NCBI RefSeq assembly: GCF_000702545.1
Contig: NZ_JNIO01000008.1
Coordinates: 310,001-374,000, forward strand
Source: Selenomonas sp. AB3002
GTDB taxonomy: Bacteria > Bacillota > Negativicutes > Selenomonadales > Selenomonadaceae
Length of the DNA stretch: 64,000 nucleotides
Direction: 5' to 3'
Shown: positions 34,441-54,715 of the stretch, in pieces
Layout of the letters: each line of letters opens with the position of its first letter
Position numbering within the stretch: position 1 is the stretch's first letter
Translations under genes and position numbers: made by a program
Notes under the pieces: model-generated
What the model was told of the DNA's origin: nothing
Database searches by the model: none
What the model saw: the letters and a program-made list of their open reading frames with translations, nothing else

Positions 34441-34492
34441 TCAACATGAGTTGACAGAAGCAGAAAATCTTTATATAATCTCATAGTGAGAT
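34441..34492 (+). promoter_or_regulatory. Consensus promoter with overlapping operators for the glycan cluster
   Basis: TTGACA (34451-34456), a 17-base spacer and TATAAT (34474-34479): a perfect promoter. The perfect palindrome ATCTCATAGTGAGAT (34478-34492) overlaps the -10 end and the start point. TCAACATGAGTTGA (34441-34454) overlaps the -35, and a TATCTCATTT half-site lies further toward the XRE gene. Such sites are expected for XRE repressors. Confidence 0.78.
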
Positions 34493-34508
34493 AAAAGGAG
34501 CGGTGGAT

Positions 34509-35792
34509 ATGGAGAACCCGGAAAATCAGCTTAAGCATGAACTCATTCTCTATGGCAGAGGTCTGATTGCAGAGGAGTACTTCCGCTACCTGTCCCGAAA
34601 GGAACAGGCGGGAGAGGTCATGTGTTTTGCTGTGACCACCATGAACGGCCAGGGAGACACTTACTGCGGAAGGCCTTGTCTGGAAATTGAGCCGGCTTTG
34701 GCAAAATTCCCGCAGGCAGAGGTACATCTGGCTTTGCAGGAAAAATATCATGGGGAAGTCGTTTCCCTGCTGGAGAAGCTGGGGAGAAGGCCGGAACGGG
34801 TTATTGGCCTCCATCGCATGACGGAATTATTGGGAGAGCAGGGAATAAGGGAAATCAGCACCGCTTGTTCGGAATTAACGGTAAGGCGCAATCCCCATGA
34901 CTATTCCATGCTGGAAATCGCTGCTAGTGAGCATCCGGAAGAAAAGTTCACTTTTTACCCCATGACTCAAGTGCCTTTATCACCAGAGGATATGGCAAAG
35001 GTGCGTAGTTATGTGCAGGGAAATTTTTTCGAGGGCTGGGGTGGCATAAAAGATTTGGCAAAGTCTGCTTCAAGGCTTGAGGAAAATGTCCTTTACATAG
35101 CCATGGCCACTTCTGCCAAGGATGCCCTGGTCAGCCGTGAGGGCCTGCCGGGCTATGTACACACCGTGCTGGGAGGAGCCGCGGCCTATGAGGGGCAGCG
35201 CTCTGGAGAACTGGCATATGATGATGAAGGGAGAAATATCTCTCTTTATAATAACCTTTACTCGGAACTGACAGTTGCATACTGGCTGTGGCAGAAAGCA
35301 CCGCAGACTAAGTACCTGGGGTTATGCCATTACCGCAGGCATTTTGTGCTGCCTGCGGAAGTGCAGGGGGCTATAGCCAAAGGGGAGATAGACGTCCTTC
35401 TTACCCGCCCACGCCTTACTTTTCCAAGCGTGCGGGAATACTTTGCGAACCTACCAGTCACCACCATGGATGAGCTGGACTATGAAACAATGCTCAGATT
35501 GATAGAGAGTGAAGATTCTGAGCTGGCAAAGTTTTCAAGGGATTTCTTGGAGGGGCAGATTCATTTTCCCAATAACATGGTTATCGCAAAGAGAGATATT
35601 TATCTTGACTATTGTAAATTCATGTTCAAGGTGCTGCAGGGGATGCAGGAGCATTACAAGGGGAAAGGGACTCCCCGCCCGGACAGGTACCTTGGCTATG
35701 TGGGGGAACTGCTGACTACCGTGTACTTCGCCTATCATCGTGGGAGATGGCGGACAGGATTTATAGATTATCGACTGCTGAAAGAAGTATGA
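34509..35792 (+). CDS. DUF4422 glycosyltransferase with N-terminal Rossmann-like domain
   Basis: About 427 residues from ATG 34509 (GGAG ribosome binding site; GTG 34503 alternative). The N-terminal ~130 residues form a Rossmann-like unit beginning ELILYGRGLIAEEYFRYL, a recurring accessory domain in this cluster. The C-terminal ~240 residues are DUF4422, shown by YNNLYSELTVAYWLWQ, LGLCHYRRHF and FPNNMVIAKRDIYLDYCKF. DUF4422 proteins are found in capsule and exopolysaccharide loci and are believed to be glycosyltransferases. It is the first gene after the regulated promoter and is followed after 12 bases by a GT2. Confidence 0.8.
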   Translation: MENPENQLKHELILYGRGLIAEEYFRYLSRKEQAGEVMCFAVTTMNGQGDTYCGRPCLEIEPALAKFPQAEVHLALQEKYHGEVVSLLEKLGRRPERVIGLHRMTELLGEQGIREISTACSELTVRRNPHDYSMLEIAASEHPEEKFTFYPMTQVPLSPEDMAKVRSYVQGNFFEGWGGIKDLAKSASRLEENVLYIAMATSAKDALVSREGLPGYVHTVLGGAAAYEGQRSGELAYDDEGRNISLYNNLYSELTVAYWLWQKAPQTKYLGLCHYRRHFVLPAEVQGAIAKGEIDVLLTRPRLTFPSVREYFANLPVTTMDELDYETMLRLIESEDSELAKFSRDFLEGQIHFPNNMVIAKRDIYLDYCKFMFKVLQGMQEHYKGKGTPRPDRYLGYVGELLTTVYFAYHRGRWRTGFIDYRLLKEV

Positions 35793-35804: not shown

Positions 35805-37211
35805 ATGCCGGAAATATCCGTAATTGTGCCCCTGTACAATACAAGGAAGTATCTGCAGGAGGCTATTGATAGCGTACTAGCTCAGACTTTTCAGGATTTC
35901 GAAATCATAGTGGTAGATGACTGTTCAACGGATGGCAGCTGGGAACTGGTAAACAGGCTTTATGGAGAAAATGACAATGTCTGCCTGTATCGCCATGAAA
36001 ACAACAAGACAGCAGGTGGCGCCAGAAACACGGGCCTTGAGCACGCTAAGGGCAAATACATTGCCTTTTTGGACAGTGATGATCTCTATATGCCGGAGAC
36101 ATTGGAAATCATGCATAAGGCGGCCGAAAAGTACGGCGCGGAGGTAGTTCATTCCCCAGGTTGTTTGATACCCCAGGGAGATCAGGAGCAGATAAGGACA
36201 ACAGACGAATTCCGCACCATTCTCTTTGACGATATGTCAGCCTCAGAAAAGCCAGTGCTGATAAACGAAGACAAGGCCTATCGCGTGGAGCTTTGGGGCA
36301 GACGGAAACTTTACGGCACCATCTGGAACAAGCTTTTCAGAAAGGATTTCCTGGACAAGCATCACATACGCTTCGAGGAAAACTTAGTGCCGGGGCAGGA
36401 TGCCATCTTCCTGTTCCGTTGTATCTTCTATGCCAGAATCTACCTATGGATTCCGGACATCTTCTACATCTACCGCCGTCCTGTCACATCTGTGACCAGA
36501 AAAAAGCGGGATGCCAAATTTATCGCAATGCAGGCCAAAAATATTGCAGCGAAGATAAAGGCACTGGATACCTATATGGGTGACATCCCGTGGTTCAGTG
36601 ACAAACCGGAAGTACAGGACAAAGTTCGGGAGTTTGCCATTATCGACACTGACCCCTCCTTCATTCAGCAAGGCTACCACAGCCAGGGCCTGCTGGAGGG
36701 CAGTGAGGAAGAAATCCGCCAAGCCTTCAAGGATATTTACGGTGAGCAAGGCTATTTTGCCTATTGGTATTTCCATCACTATCATCTGCTGAAGGCAGGC
36801 GCGGGAGGAACCAATGAGGGCCAGTCATACATCTTCCCCTATCATCTTTTCCAAGAGGGAGAGAGAACCGTCATCTACGGCGCCGGAGAATCCGGCCAGT
36901 CCTTCTACCGCCAGTTGCAGCGGCAAAACTACCTCAAGCCCGTAGGTATAGTGGACAAAAGAGCCAAGGAACTTAAAACCCCGGACTTCCCCGTGCAACT
37001 AGTTGAAGACCTAAAAAAGATGGACTTCGATGCCCTTCTGATTGCCGTCATCAATGAAAAAGCAGCCAGGGAAATCAAGGCCATGCTCATTCAAATGGGT
37101 ATAGCAGAAAACAGGATTCGCTGGCAAGGAAATGCCTACACAGAAGATGACTATTACAACAACTACTATTTTCCCTTACTGAGAGAAAACCATCAAGCAA
37201 GACAAAACTAA
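35805..37211 (+). CDS. Family 2 glycosyltransferase with C-terminal Rossmann-like domain
   Basis: A 468-residue protein. The GT-A domain (residues 1-230) opens with ISVIVPLYNTRKYLQEAIDSVLAQTF and has VDDCSTDGS, GARNTGLEHAKGKY and the DxD-type FLDSDD. A helical stretch follows. The C-terminal 110 residues carry another copy of the cluster's accessory domain (TVIYGAGESGQSFYRQL, then VGIVDKRA, DALLIAVINE, and a final GIAENRIRW-like turn). The enzyme probably adds one sugar in the repeat unit of the surface glycan. The start follows GGGAGAGG. Confidence 0.85.
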   Translation: MPEISVIVPLYNTRKYLQEAIDSVLAQTFQDFEIIVVDDCSTDGSWELVNRLYGENDNVCLYRHENNKTAGGARNTGLEHAKGKYIAFLDSDDLYMPETLEIMHKAAEKYGAEVVHSPGCLIPQGDQEQIRTTDEFRTILFDDMSASEKPVLINEDKAYRVELWGRRKLYGTIWNKLFRKDFLDKHHIRFEENLVPGQDAIFLFRCIFYARIYLWIPDIFYIYRRPVTSVTRKKRDAKFIAMQAKNIAAKIKALDTYMGDIPWFSDKPEVQDKVREFAIIDTDPSFIQQGYHSQGLLEGSEEEIRQAFKDIYGEQGYFAYWYFHHYHLLKAGAGGTNEGQSYIFPYHLFQEGERTVIYGAGESGQSFYRQLQRQNYLKPVGIVDKRAKELKTPDFPVQLVEDLKKMDFDALLIAVINEKAAREIKAMLIQMGIAENRIRWQGNAYTEDDYYNNYYFPLLRENHQARQN

Positions 37212-37312: not shown

Positions 37313-38632
37313 ATGAAAATAGCAATCGCTGGCACCGGCTATGTCGGTTTCGTCACCGCCGTTTGCCTGGCCGAGCACGGCCACCAGGTAACCTGTGTGG
37401 ATGTGGACAAGCAGAAAATCGACAGCCTGAACCGCTACGGCAAGGCCCTGATCTACGAAAAAGACCTGGATGCCCTGATGGAAAAGAACAAGGAGCGCCT
37501 GACCTACACCACGGATTATGCCAGTGCCTACAAGGATGCAGAAATCATCTTTATCGGCGTGGGTACCCCGGAGAAAAGGGATGGCTCCGCCAATCTGAAC
37601 TACGTCTACGCCGTGGCCATGCAGATAGCGGAGACCGCAGAACGTGAGTGCGTGGTGGTAGTGAAATCCACTGTCCCCATCGGCACCAATGAACGAATCG
37701 AAAAGCTTATCAAAGAGCATAGAGTGGAGGGGGCAGCCCCACTCCATGTAGCATCTAACCCGGAGTTTTTGTCGCAGGGTACGGCGGTGCACGATACTCT
37801 CCATGCCTCACGCATCGTCATGGGGGTGGAGGATGACTACTCCAAAGCAAAGCTCACGGAACTCTACAAGGATTTCGCTGCCCCGAAGATCATCACCAAC
37901 CGCCGCAGTGCAGAGATGATCAAGTATGCTTCCAATGATTTCCTGGCGCTCAAGATAAGCTACATCAACGAAATCGCTAACCTTTGCGAGGAAATCGGGG
38001 CAGATATCGAGGACGTAGCCAAAGGCATGGGCTACGACAAGCGCATTGGCAGCAAGTTCCTGCGGGCAGGGATAGGTTATGGCGGGTCTTGTTTTCCAAA
38101 AGATACCAAAGCTTTGCACTGGCTATCTGACTATCATGAGCAGGAGCTGAAGACTGTCAAGGCGGCCATTGAGATCAATGACCACCAGAAGTTGAAGCTG
38201 ATTCGCAAGGCTCATAAGTACTATGAGGATTTGGAAGGTGTCACAGTGGCTGTGCTAGGGCTTACCTTCAAGCCTGGCACAGATGATTTGAGAGAGGCAC
38301 CGTCTCTCACCAATGTACCTATGTTGCTGGAGGAAGGGGCTATAGTGAGGGTTTATGACCCCATTGGTATGGAGCGGTTCAAGGAACTTTATCCTACTCA
38401 GGTGAAGTATTGCAAGGATATAGATACGGTCTTAAAAGGTGCGAAACTTTGCCTGATACTGACAGACTGGCCTCAGGTCAAGGAGTACCCGCTGGAAGGA
38501 TTTAAGAAGAATATGGAGAGGGCCATCGTGCTGGATGGCAGGAACTGTTATAGTTTGGCAGAGGCAGAGTCTGCTGGCATGACGTATGAGTCTATGGGTC
38601 GAAAGGCCATTGTGTCAAAATCAATGGAATGA
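37313..38632 (+). CDS. ugd: UDP-glucose 6-dehydrogenase
   Basis: A 439-residue UDP-glucose/GDP-mannose dehydrogenase family enzyme. It oxidises UDP-glucose twice with NAD to UDP-glucuronate. NAD-binding GTGYVGFVTAVCLAEHGHQV at the N-terminus, GVGTPEKRDGSANL, STVPIGTNER and NPEFLSQGTAVHD are visible. The catalytic cysteine lies in GYGGSCFPKDTKAL (about 260). The C-terminal domain has GLTFKPGTDDLREAPS. Complete length. It supplies uronic acid for the glycan made by the surrounding transferases. The gene follows an AAAAAGGAGC ribosome binding site. Confidence 0.95.
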   Translation: MKIAIAGTGYVGFVTAVCLAEHGHQVTCVDVDKQKIDSLNRYGKALIYEKDLDALMEKNKERLTYTTDYASAYKDAEIIFIGVGTPEKRDGSANLNYVYAVAMQIAETAERECVVVVKSTVPIGTNERIEKLIKEHRVEGAAPLHVASNPEFLSQGTAVHDTLHASRIVMGVEDDYSKAKLTELYKDFAAPKIITNRRSAEMIKYASNDFLALKISYINEIANLCEEIGADIEDVAKGMGYDKRIGSKFLRAGIGYGGSCFPKDTKALHWLSDYHEQELKTVKAAIEINDHQKLKLIRKAHKYYEDLEGVTVAVLGLTFKPGTDDLREAPSLTNVPMLLEEGAIVRVYDPIGMERFKELYPTQVKYCKDIDTVLKGAKLCLILTDWPQVKEYPLEGFKKNMERAIVLDGRNCYSLAEAESAGMTYESMGRKAIVSKSME

Positions 38633-38660: not shown

Positions 38661-40256
38661 ATGAGCAGGCGTACCAGGAAGAAGAACAGGCAAGTTGCGA
38701 GAAAAGCTTTGATTGAAGAAAAAAAAGTGACAGAAACAGGCAATAGCGCAGCTGCGGAAGCAAAAGAAGTAAAAGAAACAAAAGAAACAATCGTCAGAGA
38801 AGATGAAAAGACCAAAGCAAAAGAGATGCCAAAAGGTGGCTTGATTATATACGGTGCAGGGGATCATCTTAAGGATATGCTTGCCTGGCATAAAGACTTA
38901 GCCAGTAGAATTGCCAGGGTCGTAGATAAGAATGAAGCAAAGATCGGTCAAAAAGTGTACGGCCTTGATTGCAAAGTAGAGGCTCCCAAGGTTCTGAAGG
39001 AGCTTCCTGCAGGTACGCAAGTCGCTATTTCTGCTTTGCGCTATTATGGTGAGATTGTCAAAGAACTGCATGAGATCAATGCCGGCTTGGTTTGCCCAGA
39101 TATTGATCAGGCATACTCGTTTATGTGCCAATTTGAAGCCAGGGGTATGCTAGTGTATGGTGTGGGAGCGCACTTAGAGGATATGCTCGCCTGGCATCCT
39201 GACCTTAAGGGAAGGATTGCCAGAGTATTTGACAAGGACCAGAAGAGGTGGGGGCAGAAGGAACAGGGTACAGGGAGAACCATAGAGAGTCCTGAGGTAT
39301 TGAAGCGCATAGCACCAGGAACAAAGATTGCCATTTCTGCCATACGCTACTATGAAGAAATTGCTGAGGAAATATATGCGTTGAATCCAGGTCTGGTCTG
39401 CTTGGATATTGATGAAGCCTATGCCGCTATGCCTGTAATAAAAACTCCAGCGAAACCAGCTGCAGCAAAAACAGTTGTGGCAAAACAGAAGCCTGCCACG
39501 ACTGTTGCTGCACCAAAGCCGGTGGTAAAGGTGCGTAATGAAATGAGTGTCTTGCAGAAGCAGAGGCTTAGAGGAAAGGAGTCTGCCGAAAGATGGCGAC
39601 GCAAATTTCTTATTGAATGCGCCAATATGCGTAAAGTATTTTGGGGTACCAAGGGTGTGCGGGCCAATTATCTTATACAGGAATACCGTCCCTTCATGGG
39701 GAAGACGGATTTCTTTATTGATGAGGATGTGAATCTGCGTGGGCACATCAAGGCAGGGCTGCCAATTTGTGTGCCAGATGTGCTGAAGGATATACGTGGC
39801 AGATTCAAAATCATAATCCTGTCCCGTGATTATGCCAAGATTAGCGAGAAACTCAGGGATTATGGTTATATAGAGAATGTTGATTTTGTTGAGGGCAGGC
39901 AGCTTTTGGGGGAAGACGAGAACGGTTGTATTGATGTCCCCTGTGTGGACAAGACCAGGGAAGGTATGATTGTCTATGCTGAGTGCACGCATCTGGCAGA
40001 TATGTTGAAGGCGCATCCAGAACTGGCTTGGGCAATCTCTCGTGTTATTGACAAGGATAAGAAAAAGGTCGGCACCCTGGTCAAGGATGTTGGCGTATCG
40101 GTGGAGCCACTGGAAGTGCTGCGTGATGTGCCTGTGGGTACGGAGATAGTTGTAGCTGATATCGAAAATTTCCAGGCTGCCAAAAAGGATATGCTCGAGT
40201 TGCAACCTGGCGTTATTTGCAAAAAAATTGATGATGTATGGCGTGAGTATGTTTGA
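38661..40256 (+). CDS. Repeat protein made of Rossmann-like accessory domains
   Basis: A 531-residue protein without a known name. The N-terminus (1-55) is Lys/Glu-rich. Three homologous ~97-residue units follow at about 59-155, 162-258 and 435-531. They begin IIYGAGDHLKDMLAWH, LVYGVGAHLEDMLAWH and IVYAECTHLADMLKAH, each followed by an RV-DK turn, a P-G-T strand start and a final LVCxDID or similar motif. Between units 2 and 3 lie a Pro/Ala/Lys linker and a different Rossmann-like unit (about 320-425) with FFIDEDVN and GYIENVDFVEG. Similar single units are attached to neighbouring glycosyltransferases. The protein may bind nucleotide sugars or scaffold the enzymes; this is inference. No signal peptide. 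Confidence 0.6.
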   Translation: MSRRTRKKNRQVARKALIEEKKVTETGNSAAAEAKEVKETKETIVREDEKTKAKEMPKGGLIIYGAGDHLKDMLAWHKDLASRIARVVDKNEAKIGQKVYGLDCKVEAPKVLKELPAGTQVAISALRYYGEIVKELHEINAGLVCPDIDQAYSFMCQFEARGMLVYGVGAHLEDMLAWHPDLKGRIARVFDKDQKRWGQKEQGTGRTIESPEVLKRIAPGTKIAISAIRYYEEIAEEIYALNPGLVCLDIDEAYAAMPVIKTPAKPAAAKTVVAKQKPATTVAAPKPVVKVRNEMSVLQKQRLRGKESAERWRRKFLIECANMRKVFWGTKGVRANYLIQEYRPFMGKTDFFIDEDVNLRGHIKAGLPICVPDVLKDIRGRFKIIILSRDYAKISEKLRDYGYIENVDFVEGRQLLGEDENGCIDVPCVDKTREGMIVYAECTHLADMLKAHPELAWAISRVIDKDKKKVGTLVKDVGVSVEPLEVLRDVPVGTEIVVADIENFQAAKKDMLELQPGVICKKIDDVWREYV

Positions 40257-40310: not shown

Positions 40311-43300
40311 ATGATTAGGATTATTGGGACTAATCCTCAGATAGAGGCAATGTTTGCAGGCAAGTCAACCAAGAAAGATGGCAAAGGGATTTGCGTGTTT
40401 TGCGAGAAAACGGGCCAGGTTTTGGAACATGGCACAAAAAAACAGGAAGTGTTCAAGCGTTTTCGCTCCGAAAGAAGTTTTAGCCTGTCATCTTCCATGT
40501 TTGTGGAGGCAAGGGACTATTTCCATGCTGAAGTCAATCATCGGGAAGATATTGTACCCGTACTGGATGTGGAGGGGAATACGGCAGGTTATCTTTACTG
40601 GACACGCAATCGCCTCAGGGATAACAGCATTTATCAGGGGATTCCTGCTGTAGATTTCTGGGAATATGACTTTGAAAAGTATGCTAATGATTTTGTGCTT
40701 GATTGGGCAGACAGTTATGTCTTTTTGCAATTGGAGGAATACACGTATGCCATAGCCAGGCATATTTTAAGCAAGTTCCCAGAGAAGTCGGTCTATTTCC
40801 TTGACCCTTTGGCAGAATTGGCTGTCTGGGGCAAGGAGCAGGAACGCGTGAAAGTAATCGGTTCTTTCTATGATTTGCCAGAAAATTGCAGGCACACCTC
40901 TATGCAGATTACGACCTCAGAGTACAATGCCTATAGCGATCATGCGCCTGAATCAAAGAATCTTGTTTATAATTCTATAAATATCATGTATAGCATGCTG
41001 TGGGGCAAGTCCCTTTCACATCCGGGCAAAAAGCATCATGATAAGGTAGTGGTGCGACTTGACAATAAATTTGCCAGTGTGGGACTGGTAGATATCATCA
41101 AGATTGTCATGAACTTTGCTTATCAGGCAGAGCTGCAAGGCTATGTGCCTGTGGCAGACCTTACCCAGCCCGGTTGCTGTCAGTATTGGGAGCCGGGGAT
41201 CAATGTCTGGGAAGAACTTTTCAGACCATTGAGCGATATAAGGCCTGAGGAAACGGAAGATTGTGCCAATCTCATCAGTGCCCGTCAGGAGGAACGTGGC
41301 TGGCTGGTCAGCGACTGGCGCTCAAATCCCTTGTGGCGTGAGGCTGACTATAGAGGTCTGGCTACAGGCAGGTGGAGCAGCCAGCCTTGCCTGAGTGATA
41401 AAACCTGGAAATTCGTCAGGGAACATGCCCCCGAGCAGCTAAAAGCGCGCATAGAAATAGCTGCTCAAAATGAGGTGGATAAGGTAAAGCCTGTTTCATG
41501 TGCAGCTGACGGCCAACGCATACTTGGGGTGATCATCCGTGGTACGGATTACAGGAAAGAAGCCAATGCTGGTAACGAAAAGAATGCCAATAATGCCAGC
41601 GTAGAACAGATGCTTGGCTGGTGCAAAGATCTGATGAACACAGGTGGATATGACTATTTGTTCCTGGCTACGGAAGATGAAGATTATTTCCAGTTGTTTA
41701 AAGATAACTTCTCTGGTGACAAGCTCTTGTATGTAGACCAGCCACGGGTACATCTTGATTTGTCTCTGGGCAAGCGAATCACTACGGATGTACTTTTCAA
41801 GGATAAGAAAGTGGCAGGGCTTGAACTGGCAAAACTCTATCTGACTGCCTTGAAATGCTTGGTTGTTTGCGATGACCTGATTTCTTCCATGGATAATGGT
41901 ACATACAGGCAGGTCCTGCGGTGGAATGCAGGCAAATATGGACTGGCCAGGATTGTAAAAGATGGAGAAGCACTGCCTGTTTCTGTCAGGAAGGAGCCCC
42001 AGAAGGCAGTTCCGGCAGCGCCTAAGGCAGAAGCGCCTAAAAAGGAAGATGCGAAAAAGGAAGCACTGCCTAGTGCGGCGGCGCCTGCTGCAGTTCTAAA
42101 CTCTCAGGCACTGCTCAGTGACAGGCGCAGAGCACTATGGGTGGAGGGAAATCTGGCGCATCTCAAGAAACCGGAACTGTTGAGAGACGGAGATTTTTTC
42201 ATTGCCGATAATGGCTCCGATTGTGGTAGTTTCCTGCACGGTTCGCCGGTCTGCAGTCCCGAAGTTCTGCGAAGCATGGAAGATAAGCCAGTGGTGGTGT
42301 TGTTGTTGAAAGATGGCAGTGCCGCTAGGAAAAGGCTCCTTGCCCATGGTTATGTGGAGGGAACAGATTTCATATCTTCTTCTGATTTGCAGGCCAGGAC
42401 AAAAACGGAAGAAAAAGCTACCAATAGCTCAGAGCAGAAAGTGGCTCCTCTTGTGTCTATGGCAAAGGAAAAAATTTCAGAACCCGAAAAGACACCTGTG
42501 CTAGCACCTTTAAAAAAGCCAGCTACCAAGCCTCAGCCAGCTGCCAAGCCTCAGCCAGCCGCCAAGTCTCAATCAGCCGCCAAGCCTCAGCCGACTGCGC
42601 CCGTGAAGCAAAATCCTTATGATGAATTTCTTCGCAATTATGGTCAGGTTACTGAGCTTGACAGGTCGGATATGGCCAAGGATATTGCAAGTTTTGCAAA
42701 CCTGCCGCTCATATCCATTATCATGCCGGTCTATAATCCCAAGGAAAAGTTTTTCCGTCTGGCCTTGGACTCTGTTTTGGCTCAGACTTATCCTCGTTGG
42801 GAATTGTGCATGGCAGATGATGCATCCAGTGAACCTCATGTGAGGAAAGTCATAGAGGAGTACAGGAAGAAAGATGCCCGTATCAAGGTGGTTTATCGTA
42901 GCGAAAATGGGCATATCTGCAAGGCTGAGAACAGTGCCTTGGAAATGGCAATCGGAGAGTTCACTGCTCTGATGGATCATGATGATATCCTACAGCCGGA
43001 AGCGATTTATTGCGTGGCAAGGGAGATAAATACATCTCATGGCGAAGTGGATATGATCTATACGGACATGGATTACATAGATGGTGAGGGGCACAGGTCA
43101 AATCCCCGTTTTGGAGGAGATTTTGATCCCATCATTTTTGCTTCCTGGAATAATGTGGCTCATCTTGATGTCTATAGGACTTCAATTTTGAAGGATATGG
43201 GAGGATTCCGCCCTGGTTATGAGGGCAGTCAGGATCACGATATGACGCTGCGTTTCCTGAAGCATACGAAGCTGGAGAGGATACATCACATTCCCCATGT

Positions 43301-45101
43301 CTGCTATAGTTGTAGAAAGTTGGCAGGTGATGAAAGCATAGAGCCTTTCAAGGTAAGTGATATATGTGTAAAGCCTGATAAGCCTGTGTCAGAACCAATG
43401 GTCTCCATAATAATACCTACTAAGGACAAAGTTGATATCTTAAAGGACTGCGTAGAAAGCATTCTGGCAGTGACAGATTATCCTAATTACGAAATTATTA
43501 TTATAGATAACCGAAGTGAAGAACAGGAGACTAAAACATATTTTAAAGAATTGCGCAAAAGGAAAAATGTGCGCGTTTGTCGCTACGACCATCCATTCAA
43601 TCATTCTGGCATATGCAATTTTGGTGTAAAGAAATCTAAGGGAGACTGTTATCTCTTCCTTAACAATGATACCAAGATGATGGAGCCAGGGTGGCTGGCA
43701 AGCATGGTGAGGGAGTTGAATAGGGAAAAGGTAGGTATTGTAGGGGCGAAACTGCTGTATGGAAACGGCAAATTGCAGCATGGCGGAATCGGACTTCGTG
43801 GTGTAAGAATAGCCCATCATCCTGGCTTGGGGACCATGGGAGATCTTGCAGGATATTGTGGTGCTTTGAAGGTTACAAGACAATGCTCTGCAGTTACTGG
43901 AGCTTGCTTGCTTATGAGGCGCGAAGCTTTTGAGAATGTACAGGGCTGGGATGAAGATAACCTGCCGGAAAGCTTCAATGATGTAGATCTTTGCTTGAGA
44001 GCTAGAAAAAATGGCTGGAAGGTAGTTTTTGATGCTCATGCAGTTCTTTACCATTTGGAGTCAATTTCTAGAGGTCATTCTTGGAATAAACCCAGAGATA
44101 TAGCAAGGCAGGAGATGGAGAGAAAAGCACGTCATGTCATGCTGGATCGCCATGGCAGAGAACTTTTTAATGATCCATTTTATAACCCGAATTTGAGCTG
44201 GGATGAACCGACCTACAGAATAGCAAAATTTCCTGCAGTGTCGAAACCTTGGCGCCCTTGGATAGAGTTGGTATGTCCATTCCCGCTTGGAGAGATTTTG
44301 GTGGGAGTTCAGGCGGCCTGTCATGCTTACAGACAGGGAGTGAAATTGAGATTGCATGTGGCGGCAGAGTATCTGCCGTGGTTGTCAGATTTCCAGTTGC
44401 CATTCGCGGTACTTCCTTTGTTCATTGCTGTTCCTGCTGAGGGAAAGAGTGAGGCAGCTTATCGAAAGGCTTGTGAGCAGGTGGCTGCTCTGCCGGATTC
44501 ATCTGGCCTTGTTGTAGGAACTTGTCCCAAAGATTCTTTTGAAAGGGATCACAGGCTTAATATCGTTGAATATCTTCTGAGCCAGTTGCGACTTCCTATC
44601 GGTGAGAGGTTGGAGCGCTTTTTGCCTGAGGCCAAAGAGCTTGGCAAGGAGGTCAAAGAACTACTGTCTGGAAAGATTGCCTTGTTACAGGTGACAGGTG
44701 ATCAGAAGCAGTCAGATTTGCCACAAGAAGTGGCAGAGAAAATGGTGAATCTGTTGCACAAGACGGGATTCCGCGTGGTGCAGATTGGCATGAACGAGAC
44801 TGAATTGGCAAAGGGAGTTGATGCCTGCCTGTTTGAAGCGGGTACGGCAGGCTTCTGGTACACGGTATTTATGCAGGTGGATTTAATTGTCAGCGCTGAT
44901 TCCTGGACTGCACATCTGGCCACTGTGCTGGACATGCCTTTGATTGAAATATTTGGAGGAACTACGTCAGATGATTATTTTAGCAGACCGTTCTTTGAGA
45001 AAGGTACATCTGGCAGTTTGATTTTGGAGAATTTCATATTGAGTGAAAAAAGTATATGTGATTTTTGCCTCGGATTAGCAGGTTGTGCCAATAAAGTATG
45101 A
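40311..45101 (+). CDS. Giant multidomain glycosyltransferase with four apparent catalytic modules
   Basis: A 1596-residue protein. Modules in order: a fucosyltransferase-like region (about 200-560) with VVVRLDNKFASVG and LGVIIRGTDYR near 404, a motif like those of GT23/NodZ enzymes; a Rossmann-like unit (about 605-705) ending HGYVEGTDF; a Pro/Ala/Lys linker with a repeated PQPAAK motif (about 735-770); a first GT2 domain (about 798-1000; ISIIMPVYNP, DHDDI near 889); a second GT2 domain (about 1029-1300; VSIIIPTKDK, LNNDTK near 1117, FNDVDLCLR); and a GT9-like domain (1312-1596; ADSWTAHLATVLDMPLIEIFGG). It could add several sugars in sequence. Single frame, no internal stops. The start follows AGGAGCG. 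Module names are from motifs only. Confidence 0.78.
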   Translation: MIRIIGTNPQIEAMFAGKSTKKDGKGICVFCEKTGQVLEHGTKKQEVFKRFRSERSFSLSSSMFVEARDYFHAEVNHREDIVPVLDVEGNTAGYLYWTRNRLRDNSIYQGIPAVDFWEYDFEKYANDFVLDWADSYVFLQLEEYTYAIARHILSKFPEKSVYFLDPLAELAVWGKEQERVKVIGSFYDLPENCRHTSMQITTSEYNAYSDHAPESKNLVYNSINIMYSMLWGKSLSHPGKKHHDKVVVRLDNKFASVGLVDIIKIVMNFAYQAELQGYVPVADLTQPGCCQYWEPGINVWEELFRPLSDIRPEETEDCANLISARQEERGWLVSDWRSNPLWREADYRGLATGRWSSQPCLSDKTWKFVREHAPEQLKARIEIAAQNEVDKVKPVSCAADGQRILGVIIRGTDYRKEANAGNEKNANNASVEQMLGWCKDLMNTGGYDYLFLATEDEDYFQLFKDNFSGDKLLYVDQPRVHLDLSLGKRITTDVLFKDKKVAGLELAKLYLTALKCLVVCDDLISSMDNGTYRQVLRWNAGKYGLARIVKDGEALPVSVRKEPQKAVPAAPKAEAPKKEDAKKEALPSAAAPAAVLNSQALLSDRRRALWVEGNLAHLKKPELLRDGDFFIADNGSDCGSFLHGSPVCSPEVLRSMEDKPVVVLLLKDGSAARKRLLAHGYVEGTDFISSSDLQARTKTEEKATNSSEQKVAPLVSMAKEKISEPEKTPVLAPLKKPATKPQPAAKPQPAAKSQSAAKPQPTAPVKQNPYDEFLRNYGQVTELDRSDMAKDIASFANLPLISIIMPVYNPKEKFFRLALDSVLAQTYPRWELCMADDASSEPHVRKVIEEYRKKDARIKVVYRSENGHICKAENSALEMAIGEFTALMDHDDILQPEAIYCVAREINTSHGEVDMIYTDMDYIDGEGHRSNPRFGGDFDPIIFASWNNVAHLDVYRTSILKDMGGFRPGYEGSQDHDMTLRFLKHTKLERIHHIPHVCYSCRKLAGDESIEPFKVSDICVKPDKPVSEPMVSIIIPTKDKVDILKDCVESILAVTDYPNYEIIIIDNRSEEQETKTYFKELRKRKNVRVCRYDHPFNHSGICNFGVKKSKGDCYLFLNNDTKMMEPGWLASMVRELNREKVGIVGAKLLYGNGKLQHGGIGLRGVRIAHHPGLGTMGDLAGYCGALKVTRQCSAVTGACLLMRREAFENVQGWDEDNLPESFNDVDLCLRARKNGWKVVFDAHAVLYHLESISRGHSWNKPRDIARQEMERKARHVMLDRHGRELFNDPFYNPNLSWDEPTYRIAKFPAVSKPWRPWIELVCPFPLGEILVGVQAACHAYRQGVKLRLHVAAEYLPWLSDFQLPFAVLPLFIAVPAEGKSEAAYRKACEQVAALPDSSGLVVGTCPKDSFERDHRLNIVEYLLSQLRLPIGERLERFLPEAKELGKEVKELLSGKIALLQVTGDQKQSDLPQEVAEKMVNLLHKTGFRVVQIGMNETELAKGVDACLFEAGTAGFWYTVFMQVDLIVSADSWTAHLATVLDMPLIEIFGGTTSDDYFSRPFFEKGTSGSLILENFILSEKSICDFCLGLAGCANKV

Positions 45102-47923: not shown

Positions 47924-49189
47924 TTGGTATCGGGGTTAGTTTCAATTATTATGCCAACTTATAATAGAGCAAGGATTATAAGTGATGCTATAAAATCTGT
48001 TTTATCGCAAGAGTATGGTGATTTTGAACTCATTATTGTAGATGATGGTTCAAAAGATAATACGGAATTAGTGGTGAGGCAGTTTAAAGATGAGCGAATT
48101 ATATATCATGCATATCATCCTAATCAAGGGGGGAATCATGCCAGAAATGTTGGATTGAGATTATCTAAAGGAGAATACATAGCTTTCCTAGATACAGATA
48201 ATAAATGGGAAAGCTCCTTTTTAACAAAACAGATTGAAACATTGAACAGGTTAAAGGCTGATTTTTGTTTTTGTAGATTAGCTATACATGAAGAACATAA
48301 AACGCAGATTGTCCCATCAGAAGCTAATGAATTATTCCATTCGGAAAGATTATTAGATAATGCAAAACTGGTGCGTGCAATGCTGGGGGGCAACCAGATA
48401 GATACTAATATTGCATGCATGAGACGTAGGTGTATTGATGAAAACCAAGGATTTAATGAAAAATTGAGACGATTGCAGGATTGGGAGTTTTTCTGCCGGG
48501 TAATATTGCCACAGAAATATAAAGTAGCATTTATACCAGAAGTGATGGTTCACAGCTTTATTCAAAAGGACAGCATAAGATATAAATATGATTTTATAGC
48601 AGGTTTTCTTTATGTGTTTGAGCTATGGATGGATTTATATAAAGCACATGATATGGTGGATGCTCAGTGTGAAAGAATTATCCGTCTTAGTATGGATTCC
48701 AAAAGAAAGATAGCCAGGCAGGATGCTTTGGTGGGGTTATTAAGACTGGTATCAGAGGATACTATTAAGCGTGCTATTAAGAAACTTAAACTGAAGTCAT
48801 ATAATCTTGAGAAAGCTAAAAAAATCGTATGCAATTCTGTATGCATTGGGCAATATCAATCTATTCTTAGTATTATCGAGGGTAAAAACTTGATTATTTA
48901 TACTGATGATGATTCTTTGCAATCAAAACTTCCAGCAGTAGATAAGATGTTTTTGAATCACGTAAACTTTATTGCGTGTGATGATATAGAAAATGTTAAA
49001 GGGGTGGAGAATGGTATACCAGTTATTCACTCGTCATATTTAGAGGAGGGAATTTCTAAAATGTTTATCATGATTTTAGGTAACTCAAACTTCGCACAAG
49101 AGAAACAGGCCAGCACCTATGTGCGGTGTAGAGCCATGACTCCTAGAAAGTCTGCCTCATGCACAGCGTTTCAAACACTTGTTCCATAA
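47924..49189 (+). pseudogene. Family 2 glycosyltransferase interrupted at its 3' end by an IS element
   Basis: The TTG start follows AAGGAGAG. Residues 1-230 are a GT-A domain: VSIIMPTYNRARIISDAIKSVL, VDDGSKDN, GGNHARNVGL and the FLDTDN DxD-like motif. The C-terminal part (about 300 onward) is another copy of the cluster's Rossmann-like accessory unit (NLIIYTDDDSLQSKL). At 49082 the gene enters an IS element and the frame runs on to 49189 in IS sequence. Rejoining 49082 to 50668 restores the ending GNYNEHKKYIESLGYVENVDF, so the intact protein would be about 416 residues. The catalytic domain is intact, so the truncated protein could still be active. Confidence 0.8.
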
Positions 49190-50661
49190 ATTCGGCAGAT
49201 TTTCCAAGAACAAATCGAGCATCATGTCCAGTTCCTTTTCCATAAAAAACGTCTTTCCCTTTACCGTAGCAATAAGTTCTTTCAAGAGCAACACCAAGGC
49301 ATCGAGATAACGCAGATCCTGCAATTCGTCATAAGCGAGATAGAATAGCTCACCTATGCTCCGTTTATCGACATTCCGGCGCTGCTCTAGTGACAACATC
49401 ATATACCTTGCAAATACAACGGATACATGTGATGTCATTGCATCATAAGACAGAGCGTGGCTTTCTTTCCCAAGTTTCAGGAATGACTTGCATATCTTGA
49501 AGAAAACCTCGATATTCCAGCGCTTTCCATAAGTCTGGATGATGTCTTCCTCAGACAAACAGGTATCTGTGGATACCAAGATTAGATAGTCCTTGGGGTT
49601 GCTTCTGTTCCTAACGAAAACGAGTTTGACTGGCAGAGTTTTTCCTTCCTTTACCACCGCCGCCTCTACTGAAAGCAGATACTTTGAGCAACCAGGACGC
49701 TTTTTAGACTGGCGAAAGATTGCCATTACACTCTTCATGCGTTCGTCATGAAGGAAATGACTGTTTTCAGACTTTTTTACCATAGCAATGGCATCGAAGC
49801 CGAGTTCCTTGACTTGAACAAGGGAAGACGGTGAACAGAACCAGGTGTCAAAAAGAACGTAGCGGGCTGGAATCTCCATAGATTTTGCCTCAGCCAAGAG
49901 CTTCTGCATAACAACGGTAGCCTTAGTCTGTGCCAGCTTGCGCTGTTTCCCGCCGTTGCTACGCGAGTCGATCTTATCCGAAGACTCCTGCAGCCGATTG
50001 ACACGATTGGCAGATGAAAGCAGACAGTGGCTGAGTGGCAGAAACGAATTCCCATCACTCCAGCCGAGAGTCAGCATGCGGAACCCCCGCGTATACTTGT
50101 GCTCGACGTGGTCAAACACCTTGGCAAGCAGCTCCACATTCTTGGAACGTGCCCTGCTTAACAAGGAGTCATCGATGATAAGCACGTTGCGCCGGTTTTC
50201 ATTGGTAAGAGGTACAATTTTTTGAATGATGGATTTACCAAGCTGCAGAGTGAATTTGCGCCAGTTGACACAACTGGAATTCATGAAACGGTAAAAGGTA
50301 TCTTTAGCAAAGGGAATAACAGATGAATCCATCTTTTCCTGCTGATAAAAGGACTTGTTGCGAAAGGCATTCTCGAACGCAACCTTAAACACATTGCTTA
50401 CAGAGAAACCGCGAACCTTATAGGCATTGCAGGCCTTGAGTATCTTGCCAACATGGAATTCTTCCAGGAAACAAGATATTTTTGAAGAAAGTTGTTCACC
50501 AAAGATATGATTCTGTGATACAATGTTCATGGCATAAGCCCTCCGTTTATGTTATGATTGCTGTCACTTTCATTATACAAAACGGAGAGAGCTTATGCTA
50601 TTTTTTTAGGAAATGGTACAAGTCGAATAATTTGGCAGTTTCACAACTGCGAAGTTTGAGT
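49083..50661. mobile_element. Complete IS4-family insertion sequence with target duplication
   Basis: The 1579-base element has terminal inverted repeats beginning ACTCAAACTTCGCA on both ends (14 identical bases, then partial identity to about 24). The flanks show a 6-base direct repeat, TAGGTA, at 49077-49082 and 50662-50667. It carries one transposase gene on the minus strand. It inserted into the GT2 gene, whose reading frame is restored by removing the element and one copy of the repeat. Confidence 0.93.
49157..50530 (-). CDS. IS4-family DDE transposase
   Basis: A 457-residue transposase. The first catalytic aspartate is in VLIIDDSLLSR, the second in YVLFDTWFCSP, and the glutamate lies in the IS4 signature Y-(2)-R-(3)-E-(6)-K, here YGKRWNIEVFFKICK. 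A beta-strand insertion between the second aspartate and the glutamate is present, as is usual for this family. The ATG at 50530 has GGAGGG eight bases upstream. The frame is intact, so the element may be active. It is oriented opposite to the gene it interrupts. Confidence 0.95.
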   Translation of the reverse strand: MNIVSQNHIFGEQLSSKISCFLEEFHVGKILKACNAYKVRGFSVSNVFKVAFENAFRNKSFYQQEKMDSSVIPFAKDTFYRFMNSSCVNWRKFTLQLGKSIIQKIVPLTNENRRNVLIIDDSLLSRARSKNVELLAKVFDHVEHKYTRGFRMLTLGWSDGNSFLPLSHCLLSSANRVNRLQESSDKIDSRSNGGKQRKLAQTKATVVMQKLLAEAKSMEIPARYVLFDTWFCSPSSLVQVKELGFDAIAMVKKSENSHFLHDERMKSVMAIFRQSKKRPGCSKYLLSVEAAVVKEGKTLPVKLVFVRNRSNPKDYLILVSTDTCLSEEDIIQTYGKRWNIEVFFKICKSFLKLGKESHALSYDAMTSHVSVVFARYMMLSLEQRRNVDKRSIGELFYLAYDELQDLRYLDALVLLLKELIATVKGKTFFMEKELDMMLDLFLENLPNLWNKCLKRCA

Positions 50662-50667
50662 TAGGTA

Positions 50668-50759
50668 ATTATAATGAACACAAAAAATACATTGAATCAT
50701 TAGGTTATGTTGAAAATGTTGATTTTATGGATTTAGGACAGATTATGAGTTGCAGGTAA
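50668..50759 (+). pseudogene. Detached 3' end of the IS-interrupted glycosyltransferase
   Basis: Read in phase with 47924-49082 it gives NYNEHKKYIESLGYVENVDF and a few more residues before TAA at 50757. The GYVENVDF turn matches GYIENVDF in the 531-residue repeat protein of the same cluster, confirming it as the end of an accessory domain. Confidence 0.8.
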
Positions 50760-53638: not shown

Positions 53639-54715
53639 ATGAATGTTTTGGTTATAGGCAATGGATTTGATTTGGCACATAAATTACCTACATCTTATGT
53701 AGATTTCATGAACTATTTGGATTTTTGTAATGCTGTTAATATAAATCGAGATATTCTTAAATATATAAGTCATGGTGATGATGAAAATAGGATATGGCAA
53801 ACTTTAAACCCAAAACTTAAAACATTGATTTTAAATCATTTAAATGTAGAAAAAAGTGAGGAGCTTTTACCACCTAGTATTATAGAGCTTATGAACCAAG
53901 ATAATTGTTGGTATAAATATTTTGATTACGAGATAAAACACAACAAATTTGCAAAGAAAAACTGGGTTGATTTTGAGGCAAAAATTGCCGTTGTTGTGAG
54001 ATGCTTAGAAGGAATAATTCAAGGTGAAAAGGTGGCGAAATATAGAAATAATGATAAAGCTTCAATTTTAACATTACTGGCTAATGGAACAATTAGTGGT
54101 TTTGAAAATGAGAATGAATATATAGAGTATATTCGCAAAGACTTAGACCTGTTTATCAAGTGCTTAGATAAGTATATAACGATAGTTGATAAAATTAAAT
54201 TGTCGGAAAGCGAAAAAATAAGCTGTGTTGAAAATATTGATGTTGATAAACTGGTAAGTTTTAATTATACAGAAACTTATTCTAAACTATATAAAAATAT
54301 TGAGAGAGATTGCATTGATTACGCACATGGCAAGGCAGGAGAAGCGGATAAAGGAGATATAAGTAACTTGGTGTTAGGTTGTGAAGAAACCTTGAAGGGA
54401 GATTGGAGGAGTATTGTTACACAGTGCGGATATTTTAAAAAGTATTTACAGAGGGATGTAAAGGGGACTGGACGTAATTATAGGAATTATTATAGAGAAG
54501 GTAAGAGCGAGAAAAACGTTTTGTATATTTTTGGCCATTCGCTTGATATAAATGATGGAGATATTATCAAATACATGATTGATAAAAGTGATAAAGTTGT
54601 TATTTTTTATTGGAATGTTGATGATGTGATTAATAAAGCTCAAAATCTTGTTCGTATTATGAGTAAGGAAGGCTATGAAAATGCCAGATGGAAAATAGAA
54701 TTTAGAAGGCAGTAG
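53639..54715 (+). CDS. abiH: AbiH family abortive-infection protein
   Basis: A 358-residue protein. The N-terminal MNVLVIGNGFDLAHKLPTSYVDFM is the diagnostic AbiH signature, with a further VSFNYTETY near 220 and YIFGHSLDINDGD near 305. AbiH proteins are single-gene phage-defence factors that reduce phage production by an incompletely known abortive mechanism; the fold resembles SIR2-like NAD-binding proteins. An AGAAGGAGGG ribosome binding site precedes ATG 53639. The AT-rich composition and the direct repeat in front suggest horizontal arrival inside the glycan locus. No second defence gene is adjacent. Confidence 0.9.
   Translation: MNVLVIGNGFDLAHKLPTSYVDFMNYLDFCNAVNINRDILKYISHGDDENRIWQTLNPKLKTLILNHLNVEKSEELLPPSIIELMNQDNCWYKYFDYEIKHNKFAKKNWVDFEAKIAVVVRCLEGIIQGEKVAKYRNNDKASILTLLANGTISGFENENEYIEYIRKDLDLFIKCLDKYITIVDKIKLSESEKISCVENIDVDKLVSFNYTETYSKLYKNIERDCIDYAHGKAGEADKGDISNLVLGCEETLKGDWRSIVTQCGYFKKYLQRDVKGTGRNYRNYYREGKSEKNVLYIFGHSLDINDGDIIKYMIDKSDKVVIFYWNVDDVINKAQNLVRIMSKEGYENARWKIEFRRQ

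Follow-up and report, generated by a model that had tools for sequence, protein, structure and literature searches.

The window analysed here, a stretch of 64,000 nucleotides from the rumen bacterium Selenomonas sp. AB3002 (contig C8, 310001-374000; the genome amounts to 3.67 Mb in 8 contigs), contains five genes arranged head-to-tail with gaps of 12, 101, 28 and 54 nt, which encode, in this order, a DUF4422 protein, a GT2 glycosyltransferase, a UDP-glucose dehydrogenase, a 531-aa protein referred to below as the array, and a giant multi-domain transferase (Table 1). Genes of the rmlA, rmlC and rmlB type are found further downstream of this five-gene operon. The array is built of four units of ~95 aa, three of which are alike (R1, R2 and R4, the first type) and one of which belongs to a second type (R3). 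It begins with a disordered head, followed by R1 and R2 directly adjacent to each other; a linker that is disordered and includes one helix leads on to R3, and a second one, short and conserved, connects R3 with R4. No catalytic family was recognised in its 531 residues by Pfam and curated models, a search of Rfam yielded nothing useful, and the only match in PHROGs was a family of unknown function.

Table 1. Features of the glycan locus, with positions counted from the first nucleotide of the window
Feature	Position	Strand	Basis or remark
Consensus-like sigma-70 promoter TTGACA-17-TATAAT, 5' of the first operon gene	34451..34479	+	12/12 consensus positions; pattern match only
DUF4422 (GT111-type) protein with N-terminal unit	34503..35792	+	Pfam DUF4422 3e-34
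Unit on DUF4422 protein (aa 12-112), Gly-loop kept, beta-2 Asp lost	34536..34838	+	independent profile E 1.3e-6
GT2 glycosyltransferase with C-terminal unit	35805..37211	+	Pfam Glycos_transf_2 1e-39
Unit at GT2 C-terminus (aa 352-442), Gly-loop and Asp kept	36858..37130	+	independent profile E 6e-9
UDP-glucose 6-dehydrogenase-type gene; Rossmann control, not a unit	37313..38632	+	E 220 to independent unit profile
531-aa enzyme-free array protein, four units with disordered linkers between	38661..40256	+	ORF, domain search, AF2 model
Unit R1 (first type; aa 60-155), Gly-loop, His and Asp kept	38838..39125	+	
Unit R2 (first type; aa 158-255), Gly-loop, His and Asp kept	39132..39425	+	
Unit R3 (second type; aa 323-419), C-terminal end GYIENVDF	39627..39917	+	3nkl fold match Z 9.3
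Linker LLGEDENGxIDVPCVDK between R3 and R4, near-invariant across three genomes	39903..39953	+	
Unit R4 (first type; aa 434-531), Gly-loop lost (YAECTH); intact in two relatives	39960..40253	+	
Giant multi-domain transferase, 1596 aa: two GT2 domains and other parts, internal R3-type unit	40311..45101	+	
Unit inside giant transferase (aa 605-693), pocket loop lost	42123..42389	+	independent profile E 4e-6
GT2 gene interrupted by insertion sequence	47924..49189	+	
Left half of R3-type unit of split GT2	48878..49075	+	z 3.5-4.7 to R3-type units
Insertion sequence inside unit of GT2 at 47924	49076-50668		transposase ORF 49157-50530, minus strand; matching ends CTCAAACTTCGCA
Right remnant of split GT2's unit past insertion (GYVENVDF)	50669..50757	+	

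An earlier note on this DNA had described units with an IIYGAG-like start and a GYxENVDF-like end, occurring three times plus a divergent fourth in the array. Four units can indeed be found; the two motifs, however, do not lie on the same ones, the IIYGAG-like start being confined to R1 and R2 (it is degraded in R4) and the GYxENVDF end to the R3 type. Smith-Waterman scores against shuffled sequences place the mutual similarity of R1, R2 and R4 far beyond chance (z 27-53) and reveal the unit inside the giant transferase as the clear partner of R3 (z 20), and these shuffled-sequence controls rule out a chance similarity due to shared composition. The GT2 type and the DUF4422 type are weakly linked to each other (z 3.6-4.9), and pairwise similarity between types mostly is at chance level. 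Judged by their sequences, the units comprise no fewer than two clear-cut types and another two, found at the C-terminus of the GT2 and at the N-terminus of the DUF4422 protein.

That all these units are homologous and share one fold is shown by profiles, bridging sequences and predicted folds, not by pairwise comparison. Profile-profile comparison connected the first with the second type (E 8e-5, probability 61%) and the GT2 type with the DUF4422 type (E 5.5e-5, probability 66%), the remaining type-to-type comparisons being weak, and among the ORFs of all fetched loci individual domains of other genomes were hit by more than one of the four type profiles (two or three). An independent profile, made of 24 domains with <32% identity to the window types and including neither the window's units nor Rex, matched R3 (1e-11), R1 (1e-9), the GT2 unit (6e-9), R2 (1e-8), the DUF4422 unit (1e-6) and the unit of the giant transferase (4e-6); R4 (E 0.13) and the truncated split unit (E 25) do not pass by themselves, although the pairwise scores clearly identify R4 as a sister of R1 and R2. 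The UDP-glucose dehydrogenases, epimerases and dehydratases encoded at these loci reach no better than E 19 with the same profile, and the possibility that the units are unrelated beyond being Rossmann domains is contradicted by this profile together with the bridging sequences. Aligned by profile and structure, the units thus have the same fold and stand above the UDP-glucose dehydrogenase and the epimerases, with the caveat that the NAD-binding domain of Rex scores E ~1e-7, on par with the units; neither unrelated folds nor a similarity limited to that of unrelated Rossmann domains was found in full. Since Rex scores as well as the units, they have to be seen as one branch of the Rossmann world and not as a private domain.

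The earlier proposal that related units also reside on the DUF4422 protein, on the GT2 at 35805, in the giant transferase and on the split GT2 was borne out, the last being the weakest case. The left half of its unit alone gave no profile hit; the DNA directly past the insertion encodes ...KKYIESLGYVENVDFMDLG, and this GT2 therefore carries an R3-type unit cut in two by the insertion sequence, which is flanked by the 8-bp duplication TTAGGTAA.

The AlphaFold2 model of the array, calculated with an alignment of four sequences (mean pLDDT 64.8; units mostly 70-88, linkers <50; pTM 0.29), displays an identical strand-helix order in all four units and, with this pTM and so few sequences, is silent on the packing between them. 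A second model was obtained for a fusion protein of the relative G133 (L018 4163-6826), in which the GT2 and DUF4422 genes are joined and the resulting 887 aa include two central units next to each other; it predicts the same order in the GT2-type unit (pLDDT ~80-91) and, at lower confidence, in the DUF4422-type unit. The DUF4422 part of this fused relative shows the GT111 fold, matching the GT111 enzyme WbbM (6u4b) with Z 14.2 over 200 residues. As to the units, R3 resembles 3nkl (Z 9.3), Rex (8.8), WeeI (8.7) and WbaP (8t53, 8.2), R4 the C-domain of KijD1 (5t6b, Z 8.4), R2 a domain of FkbM (2py6, Z 8.2), and the GT2-type unit of the relative 2g6t (Z 10.5), 3nkl (9.8), Rex (9.4) and WbaP (9.1). 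A Z near 8 may by itself reflect a common arrangement only, yet the same proteins were retrieved by sequence: searched against solved structures, a profile of the window units and their relatives found 3nkl (3e-11), Rex (1e-9), VioB (2.5e-5), the C-domain of D-mycarose 3-C-methyltransferase (4rv9, 7e-4) and the WbaP accessory domain (1.5e-3), while a search with the first-type or the second-type profile alone was unproductive. According to profiles and models, the unit is a Rossmann-like accessory domain of ~95 aa, belonging to the branch of the WbaP accessory domain, the Rex NAD domain, the N-domains of PglD and VioB and the C-domains of NDP-sugar C-methyltransferases. Because this branch is known and widespread, the finding is less novel than the earlier note had proposed; the domain itself is old, and it is the enzyme-free array that is unusual.

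Each of these relatives differs from the array in what accompanies the domain. The accessory domain of WbaP-type phosphoglycosyl transferases (PF13727, annotated CoA_binding_3) has the Rossmann-like fold in common with the units and an accessory position on a glycan-assembly enzyme, the profile match being a distant one; the PF13727 profile gave no match to the array at E<1. In WbaP, this domain holds most of the dimer contacts and is stabilised by UMP, UDP and UTP, and the enzyme is inhibited by UMP (PMC10942596). Unlike WbaP, the array has neither the four-helix membrane bundle nor a phosphoglycosyl transferase domain, and four units are united in one protein without an enzyme. The N-domain of PglD, VioB and NeuD (PglD_N, TIGR03570) is similar in the Gly-loop, the first pocket Asp and, for R1 and R2, the His of GxGxH. 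In Pcryo_0637 it serves as a UDP platform, with the uracil held by Asp41 and the ribose by Asp40 and Ser11, for which PglD has Asp36, Asp35 and Ser13, and Cys13, which lies against the pyranosyl group, corresponds to His15 of PglD (PMC8040287). Where PglD has its second, base-reading Asp, a Lys stands in R1, R2 and the unit of the GT2, the left-handed beta-helix acetyltransferase domain of PglD and VioB is lacking from the array, and neither the curated score of TIGR03570 (22.6 vs 160.8 bits) nor, by the GT2, the PglD_N cut-off (12.8 vs 23.4) is reached. Similarity to the C-domain of NDP-sugar C-methyltransferases (PF08484; KijD1, mycarose 3-C-methyltransferase) is seen in fold (5t6b) as well as in sequence (4rv9), and relatives from other genomes include clear members of PF08484 (best 1.8e-13); the array remains below the cut-off of this family (18.7 vs 23.5 bits) and has no methyltransferase domain. 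The NAD(H)-binding domain of Rex is close in fold (Z ~8-9) and as similar in sequence as the units are to each other, but the array has no winged-helix DNA-binding domain, is not a regulator gene and does not reach the Rex equivalog score (26 vs 217 bits).

A conserved nucleotide-sugar pocket, for which the earlier note had suggested a check, was found in part of the units: Gly-loop and beta-2 Asp are complete in R1, R2, R3 and the unit of the GT2, whereas R4 and the units of the DUF4422 protein, the giant transferase and the split GT2 lack one or both. R1 and R2 possess G-x-G-x-H plus an Asp at the first PglD-type pocket position, and outside the loci of the genus both Gly residues and the Asp are all kept in 53 of 68 units. 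For some units a ligand thus seems plausible. A common nucleotide-sugar pocket in every unit is ruled out by the lost Gly-loop or Asp in several, and a single common ligand for all five proteins, as the earlier note had considered, is unlikely for the same reason. The units could nevertheless be ligand sensors and nothing else, binding a nucleotide or NDP-sugar for donor anchoring or feedback, in which case the array would buffer or sense nucleotide without docking to any enzyme. The nearest solved relatives do bind UMP/UDP, UDP-sugar, TDP-sugar or NAD(H), the pocket residues are kept in the majority of the outside units just mentioned, and the invariant His of the first type corresponds in position to that of VioB GAGGH. 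We regard this explanation as rather unlikely, as several units of the locus have been retained despite a lost Gly-loop or Asp, a sensor would have no need for four covalently linked copies of two types, and the R3-type units on enzymes are conserved mainly in their second half, away from the Gly-loop.

The array occurs twice in this genome, in the window and as a paralogue on contig C2, which comprises 294 aa and two units, one of the first and one of the second type. In G133 it is 645 aa long with four units, and in G300 three units (alpha-beta-alpha) form the C-terminal part of a GT2 of 700 aa. Altogether, it is present in three out of six genomes of the genus, and since it is so patchy, it is not generally required for glycan synthesis. 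Outside the genome of the window, 398 genomes sampled across the phylum added no close first-type unit. The domain as such, by contrast, is widespread, the R3-type profile matching 47 of 300 genomes of the class. In G089, an R3-type unit is present and the array was not found, so the units on enzymes do not need the array. Among 80 unit-bearing proteins, GT2 (21), GT4-type (7) and DUF4422 (7) domains were encountered, besides methyltransferase, cytidylyltransferase, WbsX, GT8 and capsule-synthesis domains. DUF4422 itself is found in 53 of 200 genomes, and only 6 of 31 further DUF4422 proteins bear a unit; the co-occurrence of units with DUF4422, for which the earlier note had suggested a search in other genomes, is therefore no general link, and a fixed pair of the two is ruled out. 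At the C2 locus, a first-type unit lies at the N-terminus of a GT4, in G133 R3-type units are located on the downstream glycosyltransferases, and tandem units fused to enzymes exist in G083 as well as elsewhere in the genome under study.

With regard to constraint, the array of the window and its C2 paralogue differ by 0.127 amino-acid-changing differences per site in R2, 0.138 in R3 and 0.306 in the linker, the corresponding values being 0.274 for the catalytic domain of the GT2 and 0.14 for DUF4422; proportions of differences, and no dN/dS, were used because synonymous sites are saturated. By these values, R2 and R3 are better conserved than the catalytic domain of the operon's GT2. R4 units from three genomes group together in the tree with support (95/97), which indicates that the unit positions are old, with the R4 of the window on a long branch and its Gly-loop lost. 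These data bear on the idea that the unit is an add-on acting in cis, which homodimerises or stabilises its own transferase, the array being a former GT2 C-terminal region with a minor role or none. The C-terminal alpha-beta-alpha array on the GT2 of G300, the degraded R4 of the window, the C2 copy with only two units and the patchy occurrence within the genus would all agree with such an origin. On the other side, three of the four known array genes stand without a GT2 and in operons with conserved neighbours, R2 and R3 have changed less than the catalytic domain next door, and the R4 clade extends across genomes with positions kept; we therefore hold this explanation to be unlikely.

Our preferred reading, advanced tentatively and with slightly less than even confidence, is that the array may act in trans on the transferases of its operon, by pairing of units in docking or oligomerisation, with the intact units binding a nucleotide or nucleotide-sugar. 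The units of the array would pair with those borne by enzymes through contacts like the ones between WbaP accessory domains, and the array could thereby gather or activate several transferases of the operon; the units with Gly-loop and Asp (R1, R2, R3 and that of the GT2) might bind nucleotide or nucleotide-sugar and so tune assembly. Docking, which had been one of the suggestions of the earlier note, is compatible with the enzyme-free array, with the unit-enzyme fusions (the GT4 of the C2 locus, the GT2 of G300 and the GT2-unit-unit-DUF4422 protein of G133) and with the conservation of the units. The main genomic argument for the array working with transferases is that the same type of unit is found in cis on the C2 GT4 and the G300 GT2 and in trans elsewhere. 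A more specific version, in which the array would serve as a soluble, multivalent scaffold and each of its two unit types would associate with its counterparts on the glycosyltransferases of the operon, the units being former nucleotide-binding domains of which some still sense a nucleotide, seems doubtful at present, yet if true, it would represent a docking system for bacterial glycan assembly. It should also be considered that the array might have a catalytic function of an unrecognised kind, for example as a nucleotide-sugar modifying enzyme, given that this Rossmann branch occurs beside catalytic domains and that the linker LLGEDENGxIDVPCVDK is nearly invariant. With no catalytic family in 531 residues and the remaining stretches mostly predicted to be disordered, we find this highly improbable and the least likely of the alternatives.

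As far as the literature was searched, the earlier statement that no function has been described holds for the stand-alone array and does not hold for the relatives of the domain, such as WbaP and the UDP-sugar acetyltransferases. Searches for a described role of this domain on glycosyltransferases found none, and publications on Selenomonas flagellin glycosylation contained nothing bearing on the array. Rossmann-like accessory domains sit on many glycan enzymes of Negativicutes, on most of which they are left unnamed by the curated models tried and without a role that we could find. A protein consisting of these domains alone separates the function of the domain from catalysis, and this function, be it docking, nucleotide sensing or both, thereby becomes testable; the experimentally studied relative in WbaP provides a concrete prediction for docking as well as for nucleotide sensing.

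Several further observations were made at these loci. In the C2 paralogue locus, the genes of the array and of the giant transferase are in frame, separated by one TAG and five codons (L006 12498-12515). A third DUF4422-GT2-UDP-glucose dehydrogenase block of this genome (L107 6561-10717, contig C8, ~152-157 kb) has a GT2 and a dehydrogenase nearly identical to those of the window; in place of the array, a GT2-GT2 protein bearing two units in tandem comes next, and the block looks like the product of a recent duplication or of gene conversion. A different glycan locus in this genome (L109 5683-14263) encodes a GT4 that bears two units N-terminally and one C-terminally, a protein of 208 aa in which a helical head precedes a single unit, and other glycosyltransferases carrying units. 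The G133 array (L018 6801-8738) contains the stretch ...EWYLKKYPDIARHGLNPLAHYLRHGRKEGR between its units, a putative motif of glycosyltransferase-associated repeats. A 3.5-kb contig labelled uncultured Bacteroidales (L028 1-2457) carries two first-type units of the Selenomonas type joined to a restriction-type helicase; it is probably mis-assembled or mis-binned, and its use was limited to the tree and to a single row of the structure alignment. One alignment that included sequences of untraceable locus was set aside altogether. The N-terminal third of the giant transferase (40311-42100), over which Pfam gave no match, has VIIRGTDYR-like and other motifs reminiscent of GT23/NodZ-type fucosyltransferases, and a stand-alone relative, 720 aa in length, is encoded at the C2 locus (L006 1353-3515). 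Finally, a gene of the AbiH family (phage abortive infection) lies at 53639-54715, amid the glycan gene region.
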